Source: an uncultured beta proteobacterium
GTDB taxonomy: Bacteria > Pseudomonadota > Gammaproteobacteria > Burkholderiales > Burkholderiaceae_C
NCBI GenBank assembly: GCA_903897005.1
Contig: CAITZZ010000383.1
Location: 1-34,189, forward strand
DNA length: 34,189 nucleotides
Reading direction: 5' to 3'
Position numbers and translations under genes: made by a program. The notes under the pieces are model-generated. The model was not told where the DNA came from. It worked only from the letters and a program-made list of their open reading frames with translations, and searched no databases. Every line of letters begins with the position of its first letter. Position 1 is the stretch's first letter. This document shows, in pieces, positions 14,130-23,675 of this stretch.

Positions 14130-15026
14130 TCAGCAAAGGTAGTGGTCCAGCATCAGCGCAGCAAACAGCAGGCTCAGATGCCACAGAGAAAAGCGGAAGG
14201 TCTTGCGCGCGAGCTCATCGGAGTAGTCGCGCCAGAGATAAAAACCATACAGGCAAAAACCTGTATTCAGAACCAGCGCCGCCGCGAGGTAAAGCCAGGA
14301 ACTCATGCCGTAGATATAAGGCATCAGGCAGGCAGCAAACAGAATCAGGGTGTAGAGCAACACCATCAGACGCGTGAACTGGTTGCCGTGCGTGACCGGC
14401 AGCATCGGCAAACCCGATTTGCGGTAGTCCTCGACACGGTACAGGGCCAGCGCCCAGAAGTGTGGCGGCGTCCAGAGAAAGATGATCAGGAACAGGATGA
14501 GCGCTTCGGGACCCACCTCGCCGGCCATGGCGGCCCAGCCCAGCACAGGCGGCATGGCACCGGAAGCACCGCCGATCACGATATTTTGCGGCGTCAGGGG
14601 TTTCAGGATGACGGTGTAAACAACGGCGTAGCCGATGAAAGTCGCCAGGGTCAACCACATGGTGAGCGGATTGACCCATTGGTAGAGCAACACGCAACCG
14701 GCGCTGCAGAGCACGGCGGAAAACAGCAGTGTCTGCCAGTCTTCCAGTTCGCCGCGGGCAGTGGCACGCCAGGCGGTGCGCTTCATGCTGGCGTCTATGC
14801 CTTTTTCAACAATGCAGTTGAACGCTGCGGCGGCACCGGCCACCAGCCAGATACCGAGGCAGGCGAGCAGGGTCAGCCGGAGCTCGGTCCAGGAGGGAAG
14901 TCCGGGTAGAGCCAGCAGCATGCCAATCAGTGCGCAAAACACGATCAGCTGAATCACGCGCGGTTTGGTCAAGGCGTAGAACTGCCGAATCACGGACGTG
15001 CTGGCAGAAACGGAATGGCGGTTCAT
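14130..15026 (-). CDS. ctaB: Protoheme IX farnesyltransferase (heme O synthase)
   Basis: 298 residues from ATG 15026. UbiA-type integral membrane prenyltransferase with about eight or nine hydrophobic segments. The substrate motif region reads [20 protein letters not shown], with ID and KRT conserved; the first Asp of the textbook NxxxDxxxD motif is replaced, as is common in betaproteobacterial CtaB. The second motif is [18 protein letters not shown]. It adds a farnesyl group to heme B to give heme O, the first step to heme A. Its start overlaps the ctaA stop by 4 bases. Confidence 0.93.
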
Positions 15027-16147
15027 CGGCTGCGACTCGAAGCCAGTGCCCAGGTCAGGGCCAGCAGCAGCGCCGCCGCGCCACCGGTATGCAAAAGTGC
15101 GGCCAGCATGGGCCAGTCCAGCACGACATTGCTGAGTCCCGTGGCGAGTTGCAGCCCGGTCAGCGCGGCAAGCCAGCGCGAACACCGGCGCAGCGCAAGG
15201 ACTGCATTGAGGCGCCAGGCCAGCAGACCCAGCAAGGGCAAGACGATAAAAGCTGCCAATCGATGCACATAGTGAATGGCCGTCAGAGCGGAAAAGTTGA
15301 GAAAATCGCCGCTGCGTGTCAGGCCCAGGGGTCGCCAGAACTCAAAGCCCTGCTCAAAGTCCATCAGCGGCCACCAACTGCCCTGACAGCGCGGAAAGTC
15401 ACTGCAGGCCAGCACCGCGTAGTTGGAGCTGACCCAGCCGCCCAGCGCAATCTGCAGCAAGAGGCAAACTGCAGTAAGCCACAGCAAGCCGCGCAGGTTT
15501 CGATCCGTCAGGGCCAGCGAGCGGGCGCCGTCAAGCTGACTGGCGCGCACCAGTTGCCAGCACAGTAGCACCAGCAGCAGCAGACCCGCCAGCAAATGCA
15601 GCATCACAATGGCCGGGAACAGTTTCATGGTGACGGTCAAGGCGCCAAACGCGCCTTGAAGACAAACCCAGACCAGGGTGGCGGTCGGCCACCATGGACT
15701 CAGCAGCCTGGCTTGCACACTGCGCCCTGCTCTGAAACGTCCGATCCAGGCACGGACGGTCAGCACCGTGATCAAGGCGCCAACCGCTGTAGCCAGGTAG
15801 CGGTGAATCATTTCCACCCAGGCCTTGCCTTGCGTTACCGGGCCATCGGGCATGGCACTCTGTGCCGCTGCGATAGGGGCGTTGGCGCCTAGGGGACTGG
15901 CGTTGCCATAGCAGCCCGGCCAGTCCGGGCAGCCCAGACCCGAGTCAGTCAAGCGCGTGAAGGCGCCAAACACGATCAGATCGAAAGTGAGAAAGAGAGT
16001 CAATAGGGTGAGCGCCTGTGCCCAACTCGATGTTCCGGCGTTGCGCTGTTGGTAGGCGACCCAGAGCAAAGGTGGTAACGCGAACAGCGCACCCAGCAAC
16101 AGGATGCGCAGCAGCGGCGAGAGGTCAAACAGGGCTTGGGCGTTCAT
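15023..16147 (-). CDS. ctaA: Heme A synthase (COX15/CtaA family)
   Basis: 374 residues from ATG 16147, with eight predicted membrane segments. Heme-ligand histidines are visible in [33 protein letters not shown] and [11 protein letters not shown]. Cys pairs typical of the extracytoplasmic loops are in [13 protein letters not shown] and [12 protein letters not shown]. It oxidises the C8 methyl of heme O to the formyl group of heme A. It precedes ctaB with a 4-base overlap, so both heme-modifying enzymes are made together with the oxidase. Confidence 0.93.
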
Positions 16148-16157
16148 GTCACAGACG

Positions 16158-16835
16158 TTAGCGGCCAGGTGAGTCCCAGGATGCCGATGCGCGCAGCAGC
16201 CGCTCCAGATCGCGCTTGACCTTGCTGGCGGAAGCCGCGTCAAACTGCGCCGGAAAGCGCATCATGGTGTTGCCCATGGGGTCGATCACAAAGATGAAAT
16301 CGGTCAATGCCTTGTCTGGTGCGGCCAGCAACCAGTCGTTCAAGACCCCCTGCTCGACGCGCAGCAGCGTGGTGTCGGCCACGCGTTGACGCAGTCCCTC
16401 GGGTAGCGCTTGCTGATCACTGATCAGCCAGACCAGATCAAAGCGTTCCTTCTCCTTGCCCAGGGTCTCGCGCAGCTGACGTTGTGTGAACAAGCGGCGC
16501 TGGCAATCCGGCTCACAGGCAGCGCCCGCCACGCTGAGCAGCAACCATTGCCGCTTGAGGGACGACAAGGCCACCGGACTGCCATCGAGAGCGCTTGCGC
16601 CAGCGGTTGGAACCGGTCGAACCGGCTGAATCAGTTCGCCAAAACCGGCGCGCCCCGCAGGCCGCACCACGTAATAGGCAAAGTAGGCAACGATGGCCGG
16701 CAAGGAACAGACCAGCACGATCGCCAGCAATTTCCAGATGCTGCCACTTCGTCCGCCACTCAAAGTGGCTTGCTGCGCTGCCGGCATGGAATGAACGACC
16801 AGCCCCAAAGGCTCATCGGCTTTGGTCTTGCTCAT
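16158..16835 (-). CDS. Membrane-anchored SCO/thioredoxin-like protein of the cox locus
   Basis: 225 residues from ATG 16835, overlapping the SURF1 stop by 4 bases. A cytoplasmic tail of about 48 residues is followed by one membrane helix (KLLAIVLVCSLPAIVAYFAYYVV) and a periplasmic domain. The domain has ACEPDCQRR (a C-x3-C like SCO) and a late DFIFVIDPMGNTMMRFP that matches the final strand pair of SCO proteins. The SCO His is not at the expected place. A cysteine-based copper or thiol role in oxidase assembly is likely from context and fold. Homologous hypothetical genes sit at this place in related genomes as far as I recall; I know of no experimentally described function. Confidence 0.75.
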   Translation of the reverse strand: MSKTKADEPLGLVVHSMPAAQQATLSGGRSGSIWKLLAIVLVCSLPAIVAYFAYYVVRPAGRAGFGELIQPVRPVPTAGASALDGSPVALSSLKRQWLLLSVAGAACEPDCQRRLFTQRQLRETLGKEKERFDLVWLISDQQALPEGLRQRVADTTLLRVEQGVLNDWLLAAPDKALTDFIFVIDPMGNTMMRFPAQFDAASASKVKRDLERLLRASASWDSPGR

Positions 16836-17551
16836 GGGGATGCCGCCCGGCGCACTGACGCCACGCCATAAAAAACCAGCAGCGCCAGCGCCATGCCGAA
16901 CCATTGCAAGGCGTAACTCTGGTGCATTGCCACCCGGTCCTCCGGTGCCTGCCATTTGCGAATCAAGTTGTCGTGCATGTCGGATCGATTTTGCAGCAAG
17001 ACCACCGGCTGCAGCGGAAATTTCAGCTGACGTTCAAAGCGTTTGAGATCAAGAACCGGCCAGAGCTGGCTCCAGGCCTCGGGGCGCTCCGGCATCAGCA
17101 GAAATTTCTTCACGACCGGCGTCGCGGCAATGCCGCTGACTTCCACCAGCCCCGCCGGGGTGCTGACCTGCGGCAACTTCTGTCGCCCGTCGGTCCAGCC
17201 AATCCAGCCACGATTGACCAGAATCCGGGTCTGGCTGCCTTCGATTTTCAAAGGCGTGACCACGTGCACGCCGGCCCGGCCCTCTTGCTGCCGGTTGTCG
17301 ATGAAAATCTGCTGCGCCGGCTCATAGTGGCCGCGCACCGTGATCGGCGCGTCGCGCAGTTGCTCGGCGCTCACCAGCGTGGCACCCAGGCGCACGGGCT
17401 CGCGCTGCGCGCGCGCGGCGTACTGCGAGCGCTCGACGCTCAGGCGCTGCGCCTTGCCGGCCTGCCACTGACCCAGGTAAAGAAACAACAGCAGCATCGC
17501 CAGCGTCGCCAGAGTAGGAATCAAACGCGGCTGGAAGCGCAGGTTTGGCAT
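16832..17551 (-). CDS. SURF1 family cytochrome oxidase assembly protein
   Basis: 239 residues. Two membrane helices at the ends (LIPTLATLAMLLLFLYLGQWQ and YALQWFGMALALLVFYGV) enclose a periplasmic domain, the SURF1 layout. Typical motifs are LGQWQ+GKAQR near the start, VRGHYEPAQQIFIDNRQQ, ILVNRGWI and HQSYALQWFGMA at the end. SURF1 helps insert heme a into subunit I. Divergent from the DUF2909 gene by 49 bases; the cox assembly run continues behind it with 4-base overlaps. Confidence 0.93.
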   Translation of the reverse strand: MPNLRFQPRLIPTLATLAMLLLFLYLGQWQAGKAQRLSVERSQYAARAQREPVRLGATLVSAEQLRDAPITVRGHYEPAQQIFIDNRQQEGRAGVHVVTPLKIEGSQTRILVNRGWIGWTDGRQKLPQVSTPAGLVEVSGIAATPVVKKFLLMPERPEAWSQLWPVLDLKRFERQLKFPLQPVVLLQNRSDMHDNLIRKWQAPEDRVAMHQSYALQWFGMALALLVFYGVASVRRAASP

Positions 17552-17600
17552 GAATCAGTGACCGATTGCATAATGAGGTTACCCCTTTTCAGAGACCACC

Positions 17601-17807
17601 ATGCTGACGAAAATATTTATCCTGGCGGTATTGGTTTTGATACTTGGCAGCCTGTTCAGCGCGCTGGCCCTGCTGTTTCGCAAGCAGGGACAAAACAAAC
17701 GCATGGTGCAGGCCCTGACGATCCGGATTTCACTCTCGATCGGCCTGTTCCTGCTGCTGCTCGCGGGGTCCTATTTCGGCCTCATCCCGCAGCACGGACT
17801 GCGCTGA
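17601..17807 (+). CDS. DUF2909 twin-transmembrane protein
   Basis: 68 residues with two membrane helices (KIFILAVLVLILGSLFSALALLF and IRISLSIGLFLLLLAGSYFGL) joined by a basic loop RKQGQNKRMVQALT; the short length and this layout fit DUF2909. It is on the opposite strand within the cox cluster, convergent with ctaE and divergent from SURF1. Proteins of this type are often found in cox loci and are suspected oxidase-associated small subunits or assembly aids; the function is not established. Confidence 0.82.
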   Translation: MLTKIFILAVLVLILGSLFSALALLFRKQGQNKRMVQALTIRISLSIGLFLLLLAGSYFGLIPQHGLR

Positions 17808-17838
17808 CGCGCACTCCGCTTTGCGTCTGCGAAGAATT

Positions 17839-18702
17839 CTACAGCCAGTAAACAAACACGAACAGGATCAGCCAGACCACATCGACAAAGTGCCAGTACC
17901 AGGCGACGGCCTCGAAGGCAAAATGGTTGTGTTCAGAGAAATGACCTTTCAGGCCGCGACCCAGCATCGTCATCAGCATGATGGTGCCCAGGGTGACGTG
18001 CAGTCCATGAAAGCCGGTCAGGACAAAGAAGGTCGCACCATAGACGCCAGCACCCAGCGTCAGGCCCAGTTCCTGGTAGGCATGGATGTATTCGTAAGCC
18101 TGAAAGCCCATGAAGGTCACGCCCAGCAGCACCGTCAGCGCCAGCCCCAGGTTGAGCTGCGTCCGCTTGTTCTTGATCAGACCCCAATGGGCCCAGGTCA
18201 GTGTCGCGCCGGAAGTCAGCAGGATCAGGGTGTTCAGCGCCGGAATACCCCAGGGCCCCATCGGCGTGAAGGTCTCGCCCATCGGTCCGCTGCTGGGCCA
18301 GATGGCGGCGAATCCGGCGTAAGGCGTGTAGCCAGGCTCGTAACCACTCAACTCCGGCAGGGCGATGCGACGGATGTAGAACAGGGTGCCGAAGAAGCAG
18401 GCAAAGAACATCACTTCGGAAAAGATGAACCAGACCATGCCGATCCGGTAGGAACGGTCTTCCCATTGGGTGTAAACACCGCGCACGTTCTCGCCAATGA
18501 CCTCGCCAAACCAGCCCAGAATCACGTAGACAATCAACGCCGCGCCTATCCACATGCTCCAGACGCCGGGGGGTGAACCGTTTATCTTGAAGATGAAGCC
18601 CAGCGCCAGCATGAAGATGCCGGCCGACAGAAAGGTCGAGTAGTTGCTGGTGGCCGGTACAAAGTAATGCCCCCTGGAAGCAGGCACAGGGTTGTCATTC
18701 AT
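17839..18702 (-). CDS. ctaE: Cytochrome c oxidase subunit III
   Basis: 287 residues with about seven membrane helices. WFIFSEVMFFACFFGTLFY contains the conserved Glu that binds lipid near the D-channel mouth. GFQAYEYIHAY, FFVLTGFHGLHVTLGTIML and the end AWYWHFVDVVWLILFVFVYWL are standard COX3 signatures. It stabilises subunit I and D-channel proton uptake. It sits 33 bases downstream of ctaG; no room remains for the small DUF2970 gene I would expect here in related organisms. Confidence 0.95.
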   Translation of the reverse strand: MNDNPVPASRGHYFVPATSNYSTFLSAGIFMLALGFIFKINGSPPGVWSMWIGAALIVYVILGWFGEVIGENVRGVYTQWEDRSYRIGMVWFIFSEVMFFACFFGTLFYIRRIALPELSGYEPGYTPYAGFAAIWPSSGPMGETFTPMGPWGIPALNTLILLTSGATLTWAHWGLIKNKRTQLNLGLALTVLLGVTFMGFQAYEYIHAYQELGLTLGAGVYGATFFVLTGFHGLHVTLGTIMLMTMLGRGLKGHFSEHNHFAFEAVAWYWHFVDVVWLILFVFVYWL

Positions 18703-18735
18703 GTTTCATCTCCGTAGGGAACTTCATGTTCTTCA

Positions 18736-19296
18736 TCAAACTCGCGCCTTCACGGCTTCAAAAAAAGTGTAGGAAAGCGTGATGGTCCGCAGATCGCTGC
18801 CGAGCTCCGGATTGACCACAAAAACAACCGGCATGGTCCGCACCTCATCCTTGGCAAAGGTCTGCTGACTAAAACAGAAGCACTCGATCTTCTGAAAATG
18901 CTGCGCCGCCGCGGCTGGCGTCACGCTGGGAATAGCCTGACCCACGAAGACCTCCCCGCTCTCGTTCTTCACCACGTAGTTGGTGTGAACGATGGCCCCA
19001 GGGTGCACGCGCATGGAAAACTGCTCGGGCCTCAGCACCAGTCCAACGCCCGGCATGCTGTGGCTCAAGAACTCCACCGTCACCCAGCGCGAAGTATCAA
19101 CCTGCGTGTTCTTGTTGGCTGGCATGGCCACGGCATTGGTACGGCCATTCAGGCCGGTCATGCGGCAGATGACGTCGTACAGCGGCACCATGGCAAAACC
19201 AAAACCAGTGAAAAACAGTGATACCAGCGCCAGGCGAAGCGCCAGACGCCGGTTGGCAGCCGGACGGCTGCTGCCACTGTTTTCAGTTTCGCTCAT
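18736..19296 (-). CDS. ctaG: Cytochrome c oxidase assembly protein CtaG/Cox11
   Basis: 186 residues, one N-terminal membrane helix (ALRLALVSLFFTGFGFAMVPLYDVIC) and a periplasmic immunoglobulin-like domain. Copper-binding Cys pair in KIECFCFSQQTF (C-x-C) and a third Cys after the helix (DVICRMTG), as in Cox11. It delivers copper to the CuB site of subunit I. Its ATG overlaps the ctaD stop by 4 bases, so it is translationally coupled to its target. The small oxidase-assembly ORF often present between ctaD and ctaG is missing. Confidence 0.94.
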   Translation of the reverse strand: MSETENSGSSRPAANRRLALRLALVSLFFTGFGFAMVPLYDVICRMTGLNGRTNAVAMPANKNTQVDTSRWVTVEFLSHSMPGVGLVLRPEQFSMRVHPGAIVHTNYVVKNESGEVFVGQAIPSVTPAAAAQHFQKIECFCFSQQTFAKDEVRTMPVVFVVNPELGSDLRTITLSYTFFEAVKARV

Positions 19297-20888
19297 TTGA
19301 TGATGGGCTGGGTTTCAAAAGAGTGATAGGGCGCTGGCGATGGCAGCGTCCACTCCAGCCCCTCAGCGCCTTCCCAGGCCTTGGCCTCTGCTTTTTTGCC
19401 GCCACGGAAACACATGACCACGTTGTAGATGAAGATCAGGTGCGAAATGCCCAGAATGAAAGCGCCAATCGTGGAGAGCTGATTCCACTCGGTGAACATC
19501 AGCGGGTAGTCGGGAATGCGACGCGGCATGCCGGCCAGACCGACCAGAAACTGCGGGATGAAGGTCAGGTTGAAACCAACAATCACGATCCAGAAGTGCA
19601 ATTTGCCGAGTCGCTCGTCGATCATGTGCCCGGTCCACTTGGGCAACCAGTAGTAGATGGCGGCCATCGCGCCCATCACGGTGGTGGGATAGAGCGCGTA
19701 GTGAAAGTGCGCTACCAGAAAGTAGGCATTGTGGTACTGGGGATCGGCCGCTGCGTCAGCCAGCACCAGACCGGTCAGACCACCCCAGCCGAACAGCACG
19801 ATGAAACCGATGGCAAACAGCATCGGGGTCTCAAAAGTCAGCGAGCCGCGCCACAGCGTGGCGATCCAGCAGAAGAACAGCACGGCCAAGGGCAATGAGA
19901 TCAGCATCGTGCTGTACATGAAGTAGAGCTGCGAGCCGGTCGACATGCCGCTGGTGAACATGTGATGCGCCCAGACCACCACCGACAGGATCGCGATGCC
20001 CCACATGCCGTAGACCTGAGCCCGGTAGCCGTAGGTCGGCTTTCTGGAGAAGGCCGACAGCACGTGCGGCACGGCGCCGGTGATCGGCAGCAGCAGCACA
20101 TAGACCTCCGGGTGTCCCATGAACCAGAAGATGTGTTGCCACAGCACCGGGTCGCCACCGCCCGCGGCATTGAAGAAATGGGTGCCAAAATGCCGGTCCA
20201 TCAGCACCATCGTCACGCCACCTGCCAACACCGGCATGATGGTGATCAGCAGGATCGCCGTCATCAGGAAGCCGTGCGCAAACAGCGGCATTTTCATCAG
20301 CGTCATGCCGGGTGCGCGCATGTTCAAAATCGTGACAATGACGTTGATCGACCCCAGGATCGAAGACACGCCCAGCATGTGCACGGAAAAAATGGCGAAG
20401 TCCATGCCCCAGCCGCTTTGCACCGACAGCGGCGCGTACATCGTCCAGCCGGTATCCACCGCGCCCGGGCCAATGCCCGTCAGGCCGAGGAAAAACGGCA
20501 GCACCAGCATCAGCGCTGCCGGCGGCAGGATCCAGAAGCCCCAGTTGTTCAAGCGCGGCAAAGCCATGTCGGGCGCACCCAGAATCATGGGCAGCATGTA
20601 GTTACCCAGGCCGGTCGCCGCGGGCATGGCAAAGCCGAACACCATGATCAGCCCATGCAGGGTGATGAGCTGGTTGAAGAGTTCCGGCTGGACAAACTGC
20701 AGGCCCGGCTGGAACAATTCCAGGCGCACCACCAGAATCATGGCGCCACCAATCATCAGCATCGTGATGGCGAAGATCAGGTACATCAAGCCGATGTCCT
20801 TGTGATTGGTGGTCTGAATCCAGCGCAGCATGCCGCCATGGTAGGGTGCCGCGCCATGTGACGCGTCGTGTGCCATTTCATTTGCCAT
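19293..20888 (-). CDS. ctaD: Cytochrome c oxidase subunit I, divergent (K-channel lysine absent)
   Basis: 531 residues from ATG 20888, chosen for AGGAG at 6 bases. Twelve-helix heme-copper oxidase core. Low-spin heme His in LHGLIMVFG; CuB/active-site FWFMGHPEVYVLLLP (His, D-channel Glu, cross-linked Tyr) and VWAHHMFTSGM; heme ligands in VAHFHYAL; D-channel GAPDMALPRLNN. Two canonical residues are changed. The helix normally reading P-T-G-V-K reads LPLAVLFFCW, so the K-channel Lys is Leu337. The Mg-site HD reads YHNAYF, so Asp is Asn387. The active-site Tyr argues for an O2 reductase rather than an NO reductase. It overlaps ctaC by 11 bases. Confidence 0.93.
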   Translation of the reverse strand: MANEMAHDASHGAAPYHGGMLRWIQTTNHKDIGLMYLIFAITMLMIGGAMILVVRLELFQPGLQFVQPELFNQLITLHGLIMVFGFAMPAATGLGNYMLPMILGAPDMALPRLNNWGFWILPPAALMLVLPFFLGLTGIGPGAVDTGWTMYAPLSVQSGWGMDFAIFSVHMLGVSSILGSINVIVTILNMRAPGMTLMKMPLFAHGFLMTAILLITIMPVLAGGVTMVLMDRHFGTHFFNAAGGGDPVLWQHIFWFMGHPEVYVLLLPITGAVPHVLSAFSRKPTYGYRAQVYGMWGIAILSVVVWAHHMFTSGMSTGSQLYFMYSTMLISLPLAVLFFCWIATLWRGSLTFETPMLFAIGFIVLFGWGGLTGLVLADAAADPQYHNAYFLVAHFHYALYPTTVMGAMAAIYYWLPKWTGHMIDERLGKLHFWIVIVGFNLTFIPQFLVGLAGMPRRIPDYPLMFTEWNQLSTIGAFILGISHLIFIYNVVMCFRGGKKAEAKAWEGAEGLEWTLPSPAPYHSFETQPIIK

Positions 20889-21723
20889 TGGCAACTCCTG
20901 TGACTTGATTTGCACTACTCAGAACGGCCGCTGGCGCCTTCTTGCCAGCCAGCCAGGTCTTGAATTCTTCCTGCGACACCACGTTCACGACAATCGGCAT
21001 GTAGGCGTGCTCCTTGCCGCACAACTCGGAACACTGGCCACGGTAGGTGCCGATCGTGTCCACAGTCGCCCAAAACTCGCGCAGGAAGCCGGGAACCGCA
21101 TCGCGCTTCACGCCAAAGGCGGGCACCCACCAGCTGTGGATGACGTCGTTCGAGGTCGTGATGAATCGGATCTTCTTGCCCACCGGCAACACCAGCGGGT
21201 TATCCACTTCCAGCAGGTAGTGCTCGCCTTTGGGTTGCTCGTTGTCGATCTGCTCGCGCGGTGTCGCCAGGCGACTGGTGTACGTCACGCCCTCGGCCGG
21301 AAACTCATACTGCCAGAGCCACTGGCTGGCGGTCACCTTGACCACCAGATCGGCATTGGTCTTGGAGTCTTCGTACATCAGAACCGCGTGATAAGCCGGA
21401 ATGCCGAAAACACCGTAATCAAGAATCAGCAGGCCAGCAAAGGGAAGCAGCACCCAGAACCACTGCTTGCGCGACTTCGGCGCCACAAAATCAGCCGCCT
21501 GGTGGCCACGTGACTTGCGATGTGCCCAGAACGAGTACAGCATGATCCCGAGCACCGTAAAGAACAGGGTCAGGGCAATCACCATGAACAGGTTGTGCAC
21601 ATGCAGCGTCTCATGCGCAATCGGGGTCACCGGCGTCGGAAACTGCCAACCGTAGGCAGCCAGCGCCGCCGTTGCCCCCAAGCTGGCGGCAGCACCGACA
21701 CAGACTCTGAATAAACCGCTCAT
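20878..21723 (-). CDS. ctaC: Cytochrome c oxidase subunit II, divergent second helix
   Basis: 281 residues from ATG 21723 (AGAAGGA upstream). Signal-like helix, first membrane helix (HNLFMVIALTLFFTVLGIML), second helix (QWFWVLLPFAGLLILDYGVF), then the CuA cupredoxin domain. CuA ligands are complete: His196 (DVIHSWWVP), Cys231, Glu233, Cys235, His239, Met242 (CSELCGKEHAYM). No C-terminal cytochrome c domain. The second helix departs from the family: the usual VE-x-x-W-x-x-(I/V)P is SRKQWFWVLLP, so the Glu three residues before Trp90, which forms the K-channel entry, is Gln87. It receives electrons from cytochrome c and passes them to heme a. Confidence 0.93.
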   Translation of the reverse strand: MSGLFRVCVGAAASLGATAALAAYGWQFPTPVTPIAHETLHVHNLFMVIALTLFFTVLGIMLYSFWAHRKSRGHQAADFVAPKSRKQWFWVLLPFAGLLILDYGVFGIPAYHAVLMYEDSKTNADLVVKVTASQWLWQYEFPAEGVTYTSRLATPREQIDNEQPKGEHYLLEVDNPLVLPVGKKIRFITTSNDVIHSWWVPAFGVKRDAVPGFLREFWATVDTIGTYRGQCSELCGKEHAYMPIVVNVVSQEEFKTWLAGKKAPAAVLSSANQVTGVANGK

Positions 21724-21736
21724 TTCATTTGTCCTT

Positions 21737-21961
21737 CTATGAAACCCAAAAGATCCTGGCTGTTGGCCACACCAGCAGCACAACGATAACGCAGGGAATC
21801 AGAGCCCAGCAAATTTCGACCAGCACCGAGTCATGAAAATTGACCCGCCGGTCCAAACCCCAGCGATGGTGCTTCCAGACCGAAACAAACATCACCCCGA
21901 ATACCGTCACAAAAAGGACGATGGCAAGCAGCAGCAGAGAAAAGCGCAAGCCAAACAACAA
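21737..21961 (-). CDS. Small membrane protein resembling a detached subunit II transmembrane hairpin
   Basis: About 74 residues from TTG 21961, preceded by AGGAGG at 5 bases; the frame is open to a TTG at 22030, and TTG 21958 is also possible. Two membrane helices: LRFSLLLLAIVLFVTVFGVMFVSV, then after KHHRWGLDRRVNF the segment HDSVLVEICWALIPCVIVVLLV. The second matches the canonical COX2 helix signature FHxxxxVExxWxxIP, including the Glu (here Glu49) three residues before Trp52 that ctaC lacks. It stops just after the second helix (ARIFWVS) with no CuA domain. It is 13 bases upstream of ctaC. It may be a split or duplicated subunit II piece that supplies the missing glutamate; this is inference. 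Confidence 0.7.
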   Translation of the reverse strand: MLFGLRFSLLLLAIVLFVTVFGVMFVSVWKHHRWGLDRRVNFHDSVLVEICWALIPCVIVVLLVWPTARIFWVS

Positions 21962-22009
21962 ATCAGCCTCCTCGTCTTTCTGTAATCTGCACGCCCGGCA
22001 AAGTGCCGG

Positions 22010-22038
22010 ATTGTAGCGATGAACGGCCAATCGTGCAG
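22010..22038 (-). promoter_or_regulatory. Candidate promoter of the cox operon
   Basis: On the minus strand TACAAT (22015-22010) with a weak CTGCAC (22038-22033) at a 17-base spacing. Transcription would start near 22003, at a small CCGGCA/TGCCGG hairpin (21995-22009), about 40 bases before the first start codon. It lies after the stop of the methyltransferase gene on the same strand, so read-through from that gene is also possible. Confidence 0.35.
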
Positions 22039-22051
22039 GGGAGCGACGAGT

Positions 22052-22939
22052 TCAGCGGGCCGGTCCGGCCGTTTTGCCGCGCGCCAGGGCGGCTCGCATC
22101 TCCTGCAACGATATTTCGCGCTGCGCGCTCACCGCAAAAGTCGGTTGAGGCTTGATCGCATGACCATAGATCAGCTCGAACGTCAGTTGCAGAGGCTGCT
22201 GCGCCAGCGCCTGCTGCAATTGATCGTACCAGCGCCGACCGCGCAGCCCGGGGAAACGCGCCGGATGCAGATTGCGGCCCAGGCCGCGCAGCTCGTCGAG
22301 CAGGCGTTCTGGCGTCTCAAAAGTCAGGGTGACGCGCTCCATGTCCATCACCGGCTGGGCAAAGCCTGCCGCCAGCAACATGTCACCCCAGTCGTGCATG
22401 TCGGTGAACTCGTGGGCCGGCGCCGGCCAGCCCAGCGACTGGTAGAGCTGGCGCAATTCGAGCAAGGTGTCGGGCCCAAGGCAGGAAAACATCAGAAAGC
22501 CATCGACCGCCAGCGCGCTTTGCCACTGTGCCATCAAGGCCTGCGGATCGCTGGTCATGTGCAAGGCCATGTTCGACCACAACATTTGCACCGCTCCGTC
22601 GGTGGGCACTTGAAATAGCGTCTGTGCGGCGCGCCAGCGCGAGGGATGCCACCAGGGTTTGCTGATCGCGCTGGTGGCAAAGCGGACCCGGTCTGCCTGA
22701 AACTCGGTCACAAAACCCAGGGCATCCGGATAGCGCTGCGCCAACGCGGCATGGGCCTGCAAGCCGCCCCGCACCGGCTCCCAATGCGCCCAGCTCTGCG
22801 GCTGCAGCTTGATCCAGTCCAGCCTTTGCTGCATGCGTCGGGCCACTTCCTCGTGCAGCCACGGCGATGCGCTGGCGGGCACGCGCTGCCAGCGCTGCAC
22901 AGCGGCAGGATCGATGGTGGGTACAGGCAAGGCGGGCAT
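22052..22939 (-). CDS. BioC-like class I SAM methyltransferase with degenerate SAM motif
   Basis: 295 residues from ATG 22939. The middle is clearly BioC-like: VQMLWSNMALHMTSDPQALMAQWQSAL followed by GFLMFSCLGPDTLLELRQLY, as in malonyl-ACP O-methyltransferases. The early glycine-rich SAM motif (VLDLGCGxG) is not visible; the region reads WEPVRGGLQAHAALAQ. Such degenerate relatives are found upstream of cox loci in Burkholderiales as far as I recall. Whether it still binds SAM is doubtful, and a biotin-synthesis role is unproven. It diverges from comF by 40 bases. Confidence 0.72.
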   Translation of the reverse strand: MPALPVPTIDPAAVQRWQRVPASASPWLHEEVARRMQQRLDWIKLQPQSWAHWEPVRGGLQAHAALAQRYPDALGFVTEFQADRVRFATSAISKPWWHPSRWRAAQTLFQVPTDGAVQMLWSNMALHMTSDPQALMAQWQSALAVDGFLMFSCLGPDTLLELRQLYQSLGWPAPAHEFTDMHDWGDMLLAAGFAQPVMDMERVTLTFETPERLLDELRGLGRNLHPARFPGLRGRRWYDQLQQALAQQPLQLTFELIYGHAIKPQPTFAVSAQREISLQEMRAALARGKTAGPAR

Positions 22940-22979
22940 GTTATGGGAAAACAGGAGGTGGCCAGAGTATATTGACTCC

Positions 22980-23675
22980 ATGTTGCGGCGAACCATCCAA
23001 AGGCTGCTTGATGCACTGCCGAGCCAGTGCCTGGTCTGCCATGCCTGGCCGAGTCAGCCCATTTGCGAAGCCTGCGTCAACCGCTTTGCCCAACCGAGGC
23101 CGCGTTGCCGGAGCTGCGCTCTGGCCCTGCCAGCCGGGGTGGCGCAGTGCGGCGAGTGCATCAAGCAGCCACCGCCGCTGGACCACTGCCTGGCCGCCGT
23201 CTCCTACGAGTACCCCTGGTCAGACCTGCTTGTCGGCTACAAGTTTCACGAGCATCCGGGGCGCGCCAGCGCGCTGGCGCTGCTGCTGCGCAGCGCGCCC
23301 TGGGTCGAGCCGGCGCTCGAAGCAGCCGATCTGGTACTGCCCATGCCACTGTCCAACGCACGCCTGCAAACGCGCGGCTTCAACCAGGCGCTGTTGCTGG
23401 CGCGAGCGCTGGCGCCCGAGAAGACCGAGCATCGCCTGCTGCTGCGCATCAAGGACACAGCACCTCAGAGCTCGCTGCGCCGCAGCGAGCGACTGAACAG
23501 TCTGAACGACGTCTTCGCCGTCGATCCAATGCAGCACAGCAAAATCAAAGGGGCACGACTGGTGCTGGTGGACGATGTCATGACCAGCGGTGCCTCGCTG
23601 TTTGGCGCGGCCCGGGTGCTGCGCACCGCTGGCGCCGCCCACATCACGGGCATCGTGATAGCCAGAACCGAATAG
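22980..23675 (+). CDS. comF: ComF family phosphoribosyltransferase-like protein
   Basis: 231 residues from ATG 22980. N-terminal zinc-binding part with Cys pairs (QCLVCHAW, ICEACVNRF, CRSCALAL, CGEC), then a type I phosphoribosyltransferase domain with LVLPMPLSNARLQTRGFNQALLLAR and the PRPP loop RLVLVDDVMTSGASLFGAA. ComF-type proteins (ComFC, GntX) are linked to DNA uptake, where a ComFA partner is present, or to unknown housekeeping roles in other bacteria. It is followed 8 bases later by trmL. Confidence 0.9.
   Translation: MLRRTIQRLLDALPSQCLVCHAWPSQPICEACVNRFAQPRPRCRSCALALPAGVAQCGECIKQPPPLDHCLAAVSYEYPWSDLLVGYKFHEHPGRASALALLLRSAPWVEPALEAADLVLPMPLSNARLQTRGFNQALLLARALAPEKTEHRLLLRIKDTAPQSSLRRSERLNSLNDVFAVDPMQHSKIKGARLVLVDDVMTSGASLFGAARVLRTAGAAHITGIVIARTE

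Follow-up and report, generated by a model that had tools for sequence, protein, structure and literature searches.

A long-standing question is why A-type oxidases need two proton channels. The case for one of them, the K channel, being indispensable comes from mutants of only a few model enzymes. The question arises again at the ctaD gene (cytochrome c oxidase subunit I) of an uncultured betaproteobacterium of the Burkholderiaceae_C, which lies on a 34,189-nucleotide stretch (contig CAITZZ010000383.1, assembly GCA_903897005.1) that was analyzed whole and is called the window below. A first-pass annotation of this DNA had reported that the K-channel lysine is Leu337 in the protein and that the Thr two residues earlier is also lost. 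A family of such enzymes, conserved and passed between species, could show an oxidase working on the other channel alone. We consider it fairly probable (about 0.6), judging from sequence comparison, that the K-less enzyme is an O2-reducing aa3-type (A1-derived) cytochrome c oxidase that takes all of its protons through the D channel.

Loss of the K pathway in a clade of subunit I proteins

The positions that carry the observation are the following (residue numbers of ctaD and subunit II are Paracoccus numbers unless stated).

19293..20888, minus strand: ctaD, cytochrome c oxidase subunit I without K-channel residues (ATG at 20888, stop at 19293, 531 amino acids)
19878..19880, minus strand: CTG, Leu337 counted from the ATG at 20888, at the column of the K-channel lysine (Paracoccus Lys354, Rhodobacter Lys362)
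19887..19889, minus strand: TTG, Leu at the column of K-channel Thr351
20067..20069, minus strand: CCG, Pro at the column of K-channel Ser291
19869..19871, minus strand: Cys codon at the Ser357 column, a clade-specific change
19728..19730, minus strand: Asn codon at the Asp404 column (members of the clade have Asn, His or Gly there)
20100..20108, minus strand: kept Glu278 (end of the D channel) and Tyr280 (the cross-linked Tyr)
20568..20570, minus strand: kept Asp124 of the D channel

Both leucine codons read as annotated, within the motif P-L-A-V-L-F-F-C-W that had been given for ctaD and that aligns with P-T-G-I-K-V-F-S-W of Paracoccus. Four residues are listed for the K channel (Lys354, Thr351, Ser291 and Tyr280; PMC3084760). 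Three of them are replaced in the window, by Leu, Leu and Pro, and Tyr280 is kept. The reported retention of the CuB, heme and cross-linked Tyr motifs and of the D-channel Asp and Glu was borne out as well: all six haem and CuB histidines and the cross-linked Tyr of helix VI can be read in the sequence, together with D124, N113, N131, N199, E278, Y280 and R473/R474. Ser134 is Gly in the window and in most of the clade, and the remaining D-channel and active-site residues are unchanged. TIGR02891, the CtaD family model, matches the protein at 671.8 bits, just over its cut-off of 670.75. As read from the alignments of the two subunits (subunit II is described below), the whole K pathway is replaced in both, Tyr280 excepted, and the D channel and the active-site ligands are intact.

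The loss is not an isolated mutation but a clade trait. The lysine column of 234 aligned subunit I rows holds 119 Leu, 4 Met, 109 Lys, 1 Gln and 1 gap (left out were L088, L111, L236, L237 and L245, which have no usable subunit I, and L001-L004, L184, L199 and L211, which are repeats or belong to other families); 123 of 234 is not a prevalence, because some genomes entered twice from two collections and a scan of named genomes was aimed at the clade. A sequencing error is excluded by these 119 Leu and 4 Met rows, which come from many assemblies, among them those of isolates (Methylotenera mobilis 13 and Sulfuricella sp. T08, for example). Every one of the 123 Leu/Met rows carries Leu or Val at position 351, together with Cys at 357. 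At position 291, 118 rows have Pro, four Ser and one Val; position 404 holds Asn, His or Gly. Both E278 and Y280 occur in all 123, D124 in every row that covers it, and D399 in all except L079. When 30 K-less rows were compared with 30 Lys rows, the clade-specific residues included Pro291, Leu351, Leu354, Phe355, Cys357, Lys/Arg306, Gln308, Gly384, Asp395 and Phe464. Because Asp404, presumably the Mg-site aspartate, is lost and a new Asp stands at column 395 (30 of 30 K-less rows), the outer side of the enzyme is changed too.

In a maximum-likelihood tree of 68 rows, built without the six trait columns, the 30 K-less rows form one branch with support 100/100 (one row was kept per 90% identity among K-less and 82% among Lys proteins, at least 85% of the columns were covered, and L242 and L243 were left out). 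The branch lies inside a group of 51 whose other members are Lys rows from beta- and gammaproteobacteria. Lys rows from alphaproteobacteria, like those still more distant, fall outside, and the tree program warned of long outgroup branches meeting. A single K-less branch within Lys rows supports the derivation of the clade, by one loss, from Lys-bearing A1 oxidases of Pseudomonadota, with the tree leaving undecided whether beta- or gammaproteobacterial enzymes are nearest. The first-pass annotation had suggested a distinct oxidase lineage and had asked whether a clade shares Leu here; one does, and as it also has residues peculiar to it in both subunits, the lineage is well supported. Outside the clade, L242 (genome G119, contig C7, 61228-62757) is a subunit I-like protein, 43% identical to that of the window, in which Gln occupies the lysine column and D-channel residues are changed; a Lys-bearing A-type gene lies some 3 kb away.

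We searched for compensating residues in columns 279-298 and 334-363 (helices VI and VIII) of the same 30 K-less and 30 Lys rows. No Lys, Glu, Asp, His or Tyr was gained across the clade in these columns, where the gains are Ala343 to Ser and Ser/Asn357 to Cys. A compensating Lys, Glu or Tyr nearby, as in B- or C-type oxidases, had been named as the observation that would turn the case into a known variant, and the claim of K loss survives this search. B- and C-type oxidases also have a single proton channel, but theirs is an alternative K channel, with no D channel (PMC3084760). The clade is the reverse, with the D channel present and no alternative residues gained, and the K-less enzyme would mirror them. 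Outside the searched columns, the loop between helices VI and VII gained Lys/Arg306, Gln308 and Tyr303. One subgroup of 15 rows has Lys or Arg at position 360, always together with a Glu in subunit II.

These gains bear on a different reading, in which the enzyme reduces O2 with protons from a new, non-D route that enters at the VI-VII loop (Lys/Arg306, Gln308, Tyr303) or at another face and continues along water wires unseen in sequence. The polar gains of the clade would suit such a route (Lys/Arg306 in 29 of 30 rows, Gln308 in 30, Tyr303 in 27, Asp395 in 30, Cys357 in 30 and Ser343 in 28), but none of the clade-wide gains within helices VI and VIII toward Tyr280 is protonatable, and we regard this route as rather unlikely.

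Among 150 genomes of the window's family, two others match its ctaD at 90 and 81%, both with the K-less motif, before identity falls to 61%. Within the window's genus (89 genomes, fragments included), 27 match at 78% or more, 44 at 54-63% and one at only 39%, and 17 have no match at the cut-off; these classes were set by identity, with the K-less residue read directly in 21 of the 27 and the Lys in four of the 44 (L276, L277, L278 and L280). None of the 72 genomes with a match has both the class at 78% or more and the 54-63% class. A second genus has the K-less class in four of five genomes. Evenly drawn samples gave K-less genomes in at least 3 of 150 for the family, at least 19 of 399 for the order, at least 3 of 321 for the class and at least 1 of 398 (the window itself) for the phylum, all lower bounds because only fetched loci were read. 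Among the best 80 of 218 matches in the aimed scan of named genomes were Rhodoferax and other Comamonadaceae, Rhizobacter, Thiobacillus, Rhodocyclaceae, Methylotenera, Methylovorus mays, Sulfuricella sp. T08, metagenome-assembled genomes labelled Gammaproteobacteria and Methylovirgula (labels of metagenome-assembled genomes are as printed in the records). In the window's genus, genome G154 (a single contig of 3.0 Mb, 99% complete) gave no COX1-family match in either search.

Replacement of the resident module in place

The genes around ctaD have two origins.

20878..21723, minus strand: ctaC, subunit II with the CuA motif
18736..19296, minus strand: cox11, assembly protein, imported module
17839..18702, minus strand: ctaE, subunit III, imported module
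16832..17551, minus strand: surf1-like gene, imported module
15023..16243, minus strand: ctaA-like heme A synthase gene (start not fixed), resident lineage
22052..22996, minus strand: bioC-like methyltransferase gene, upstream resident flank

On an rpoB tree of 27 genomes (30 were asked for and three gave no sequence), the two oxidase types are mixed, with six changes, of which starred branches force at least five. In this tree the window's genome is paired with G200 and the K-less genome G204 with G192, and both partners belong to the 54-63% class. Aligned with G200, the window is 75-80% identical in the flanks on both sides, and from the end of bioC to just before ctaA only pieces of 68-73% align, so that a cta stretch of about 16584-22150 looks swapped. 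In G204 and G192 the flanks are 81-83% identical and the downstream break lies beyond ctaA. A third pair, G214 and G174, gave only pieces of 67-74%. The proteins tell of the same split: the window's ctaD, cox11, ctaE and surf1 are 69, 48, 65 and 44% identical to those of K-less Sulfuricella, against 55-60, 40-43, 45-57 and 29-37% to five Lys-bearing relatives. For ctaA the order is reversed (46% to Sulfuricella, 59-69% to three Lys-bearing relatives). From the rpoB mixing, the flank identities and the protein affinities we infer that a foreign module replaced the resident one in place, either repeatedly or with subsequent reversals. On these comparisons, ctaC-ctaD-cox11-ctaE-surf1 is shown to have entered a resident operon as one module.

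In order to assess whether the gene is maintained, we computed the ratio of nonsynonymous to synonymous substitution rates (dN/dS) by the Nei-Gojobori method (NG86). Pairwise values for ctaD were 0.009-0.059 in 13 chosen K-less pairs, and 0.063 in the Lys-bearing pair L276/L277. At the level of codon comparison, K-less ctaD is thus shown to be under strong purifying selection, which speaks against a merely damaged enzyme. A pseudogene or a misassembly was considered and rejected: the frame is open in many genomes, dN/dS is low, and within a single contig resident genes stand to either side of the module. In-frame TAG or TAA codons were flagged on some matches and were read in L007 alone, where the flagged codon lies upstream of the ATG. 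The predicted model of subunit I has a mean predicted local distance difference test score (pLDDT) of 87.7 and a predicted template modelling score (pTM) of 0.89. It superposes on Paracoccus 1AR1 with a template modelling (TM) score of 0.91, and the K362M mutant structure 3OM3 is among its nearest folds. That the protein is dead or purely structural we find hardly credible, with its dN/dS at these values, its ligands intact, its operon complete and the imported module having displaced a resident one.

Subunit II and a truncated subunit II gene

The K channel also involves subunit II, through a Glu at its entry that we take to be number 78. Two further features of the window are needed here.

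21463..21465, minus strand: CAG, Gln at the K-channel entry Glu (Glu78) of subunit II
21737..21961, minus strand: truncated subunit II of 74 amino acids (mini-CoxB), a transmembrane hairpin with the Glu motif and no CuA domain, TTG start

In Rhodobacter the corresponding Glu, E101, is described as the N-side end of the K channel (PMC10341450). Its change to Gln is probably the subunit II change that the first-pass annotation mentioned. Aligned K-less subunits II have Gln in 98 and Glu in 15 of 113 rows, against Glu in all 85 Lys rows (one gap row and L242/L243, which lie outside the clade, were set aside). All 15 K-less rows with Glu (for instance L123-L132) have Lys (13) or Arg (2) at position 360 of subunit I, and the 98 rows with Gln have Ala (96) or Gly (2) there and never Lys or Arg. 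The old channel mouth is therefore either neutral or charge-paired. Because most of the 15 rows are named Methylotenera or Methylophilaceae, the pairing may reflect only one or two events.

The mini-CoxB gene, with GGAGG ahead of its TTG start, stands directly upstream of ctaC and ends 13 bases before the ctaC ATG. Its hairpin holds the channel-entry Glu in a VE-x-x-W motif, and in NCBIfam it has a weak subunit II match (4.1e-06 to CoxB, under the curated cut-off). A profile of mini-CoxB matches subunit II of Lys-bearing family members mostly at 1e-15 to 1e-24 and the adjoining K-less subunit II at about 1e-4 to 1e-7 (to 1e-10 in Methylotenera); given this better fit, mini-CoxB looks like the 5' end of the displaced resident ctaC. 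Its dN/dS is 0.04-0.19 in 13 pairs (dS is saturated in two) and 0.30 in L276/L277, and with such values, which point to purifying selection, it is probably a real protein. Of the 93 K-less loci whose upstream sequence is long enough, 58 have it, counting repeated genomes. It also precedes two Lys-bearing modules (L276:1796-2068 and L277:1714-2097) and was not found in the other 35 of those 93 K-less loci, which weakens the idea that it donates a Glu specifically to K-less enzymes.

Function of the K-less oxidase

Tyr280 takes part in cleavage of the O-O bond. Since it is kept, the enzyme would still reduce O2 to water. The protons that the K channel normally supplies in the reductive half-cycle would come through the D channel via Glu278, and an altered pumping stoichiometry or a slower reductive phase would be expected. 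K-less and K-bearing oxidases exchange at one locus and were not seen together in any genome of the genus, which suggests that the two forms do the same job.

Several points weigh against this reading. In the reductive phase the K channel is described as the source of the chemical protons and the D channel as that of the pumped protons, with K362 said to be required for delivery through K (PMC10341450); K362M is reported to inhibit the oxidase of model enzymes fully (PMC7601700). A C-type-like oxidase, judged by score and length, was matched in each of the 16 K-less genome handles searched (two genomes are represented twice), so the K-less enzyme need not carry O2 respiration. Methylotenera versatilis 7 has both a K-less gene and a Lys-bearing A-type gene (Lys read), and G1045 has a K-less gene and another A-type gene (59% match, Lys not read).

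The same mutants suggest a peroxide cycle, in which the protein would be a proton-pumping cytochrome c peroxidase that runs only the oxidative half-cycle, served by the D channel. K362M is reported to spare the peroxidase reaction and to lose the oxidase reaction, and D-channel mutations to do the reverse and block the peroxidase (PMC7601700, citing Vygodina et al.). The clade has the K362M pattern, with D kept and K gone, and the C-type-like oxidase in each of the 16 handles would fit. Nevertheless, Tyr280 stands in all 123 rows, which suggests O-O cleavage from O2, and a steady supply of peroxide is doubtful. Tyr280 and the one-locus exchange with Lys-bearing oxidases favor an O2 reductase, and we think a half-cycle enzyme improbable. 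Equally speculative is its extension, that the clade is a natural peroxidase-phase enzyme that runs on H2O2 by the D channel alone, removes the peroxide while pumping protons and has repeatedly displaced the ordinary oxidase where cbb3 serves O2.

An A-type-derived nitric oxide reductase could also dispense with the K channel, as nitric oxide reductases without such a channel are described in PMC3084760. They are described there as lacking the cross-linked Tyr, but Tyr280 is present throughout the K-less clade, and several K-less genomes have NorB-like matches of about 260 bits (family by score only) as separate genes of their own. We consider nitric oxide reduction very improbable.

Compared with known systems, the O2-reducing D-channel enzyme that we prefer would stand closest to the A1-type aa3 oxidases of Paracoccus and Rhodobacter, with which the clade shares the modelled fold (TM 0.91 to 1AR1), the ligands, the cross-linked Tyr, the D channel, a CuA subunit II, subunit III and the assembly genes. 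It differs from them in replacing Lys354, Thr351, Ser291 and Glu78 of subunit II (by Gln, except in the 15 Glu rows), in Asn, His or Gly for Asp404, and in the new Asp395, Lys/Arg306 and Gln308. The Rhodobacter sphaeroides K362M mutant likewise has lost the lysine with its D channel intact, but it is a single laboratory change with the rest of the channel there, whereas the clade lost the whole pathway in evolution and the gene was maintained. K-channel variants and inferred losses are also described for archaeal family A oxidases (PMC8239418). They are archaeal, whereas the K-less clade arose among beta- and gammaproteobacterial A1 enzymes.

We found no mention of this K-less bacterial clade in the open-access literature searched. 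Family models call these proteins plain cytochrome c oxidase subunit I, a name that hides the difference. A natural clade with the K pathway gone, the rest kept and members in culture offers a direct test of the need for K. Should its enzymes reduce O2, the reductive phase can be supplied by the D channel or by a new path, and the residues changed in the clade indicate where to search; should they not, there is a respiratory reaction that has gone unrecognised.

K-less genomes contain further oxidase genes. Of 17 handles, 7 have cydA. A particular link between K-less ctaD and a C-type oxidase is not supported, as C-type-like matches (by score and length, among matches above the cut-off) occur in most genomes of the genus, whichever form they have. 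K-less ctaD is followed 6-7 kb downstream by a ccoN-ccoO pair in both Sulfuricella and Methylotenera (L117:17884-20239 and L130:16339-18415). The window's own genome has this A-type gene, a C-type ccoN adjoining ccoO, and two divergent COX1-family genes. One of these (L003:1438-3129, contig C352) reads GHSSQQ for the A-type GHPEVY, so it is without the cross-linked Tyr; it is followed by a ctaB-like gene and has only weak NCBIfam matches. The other (L004, contig C321) is very distant, at 42.8 bits, and lies near cytochrome b/ferredoxin-like and CRP-like genes, as judged by eye.
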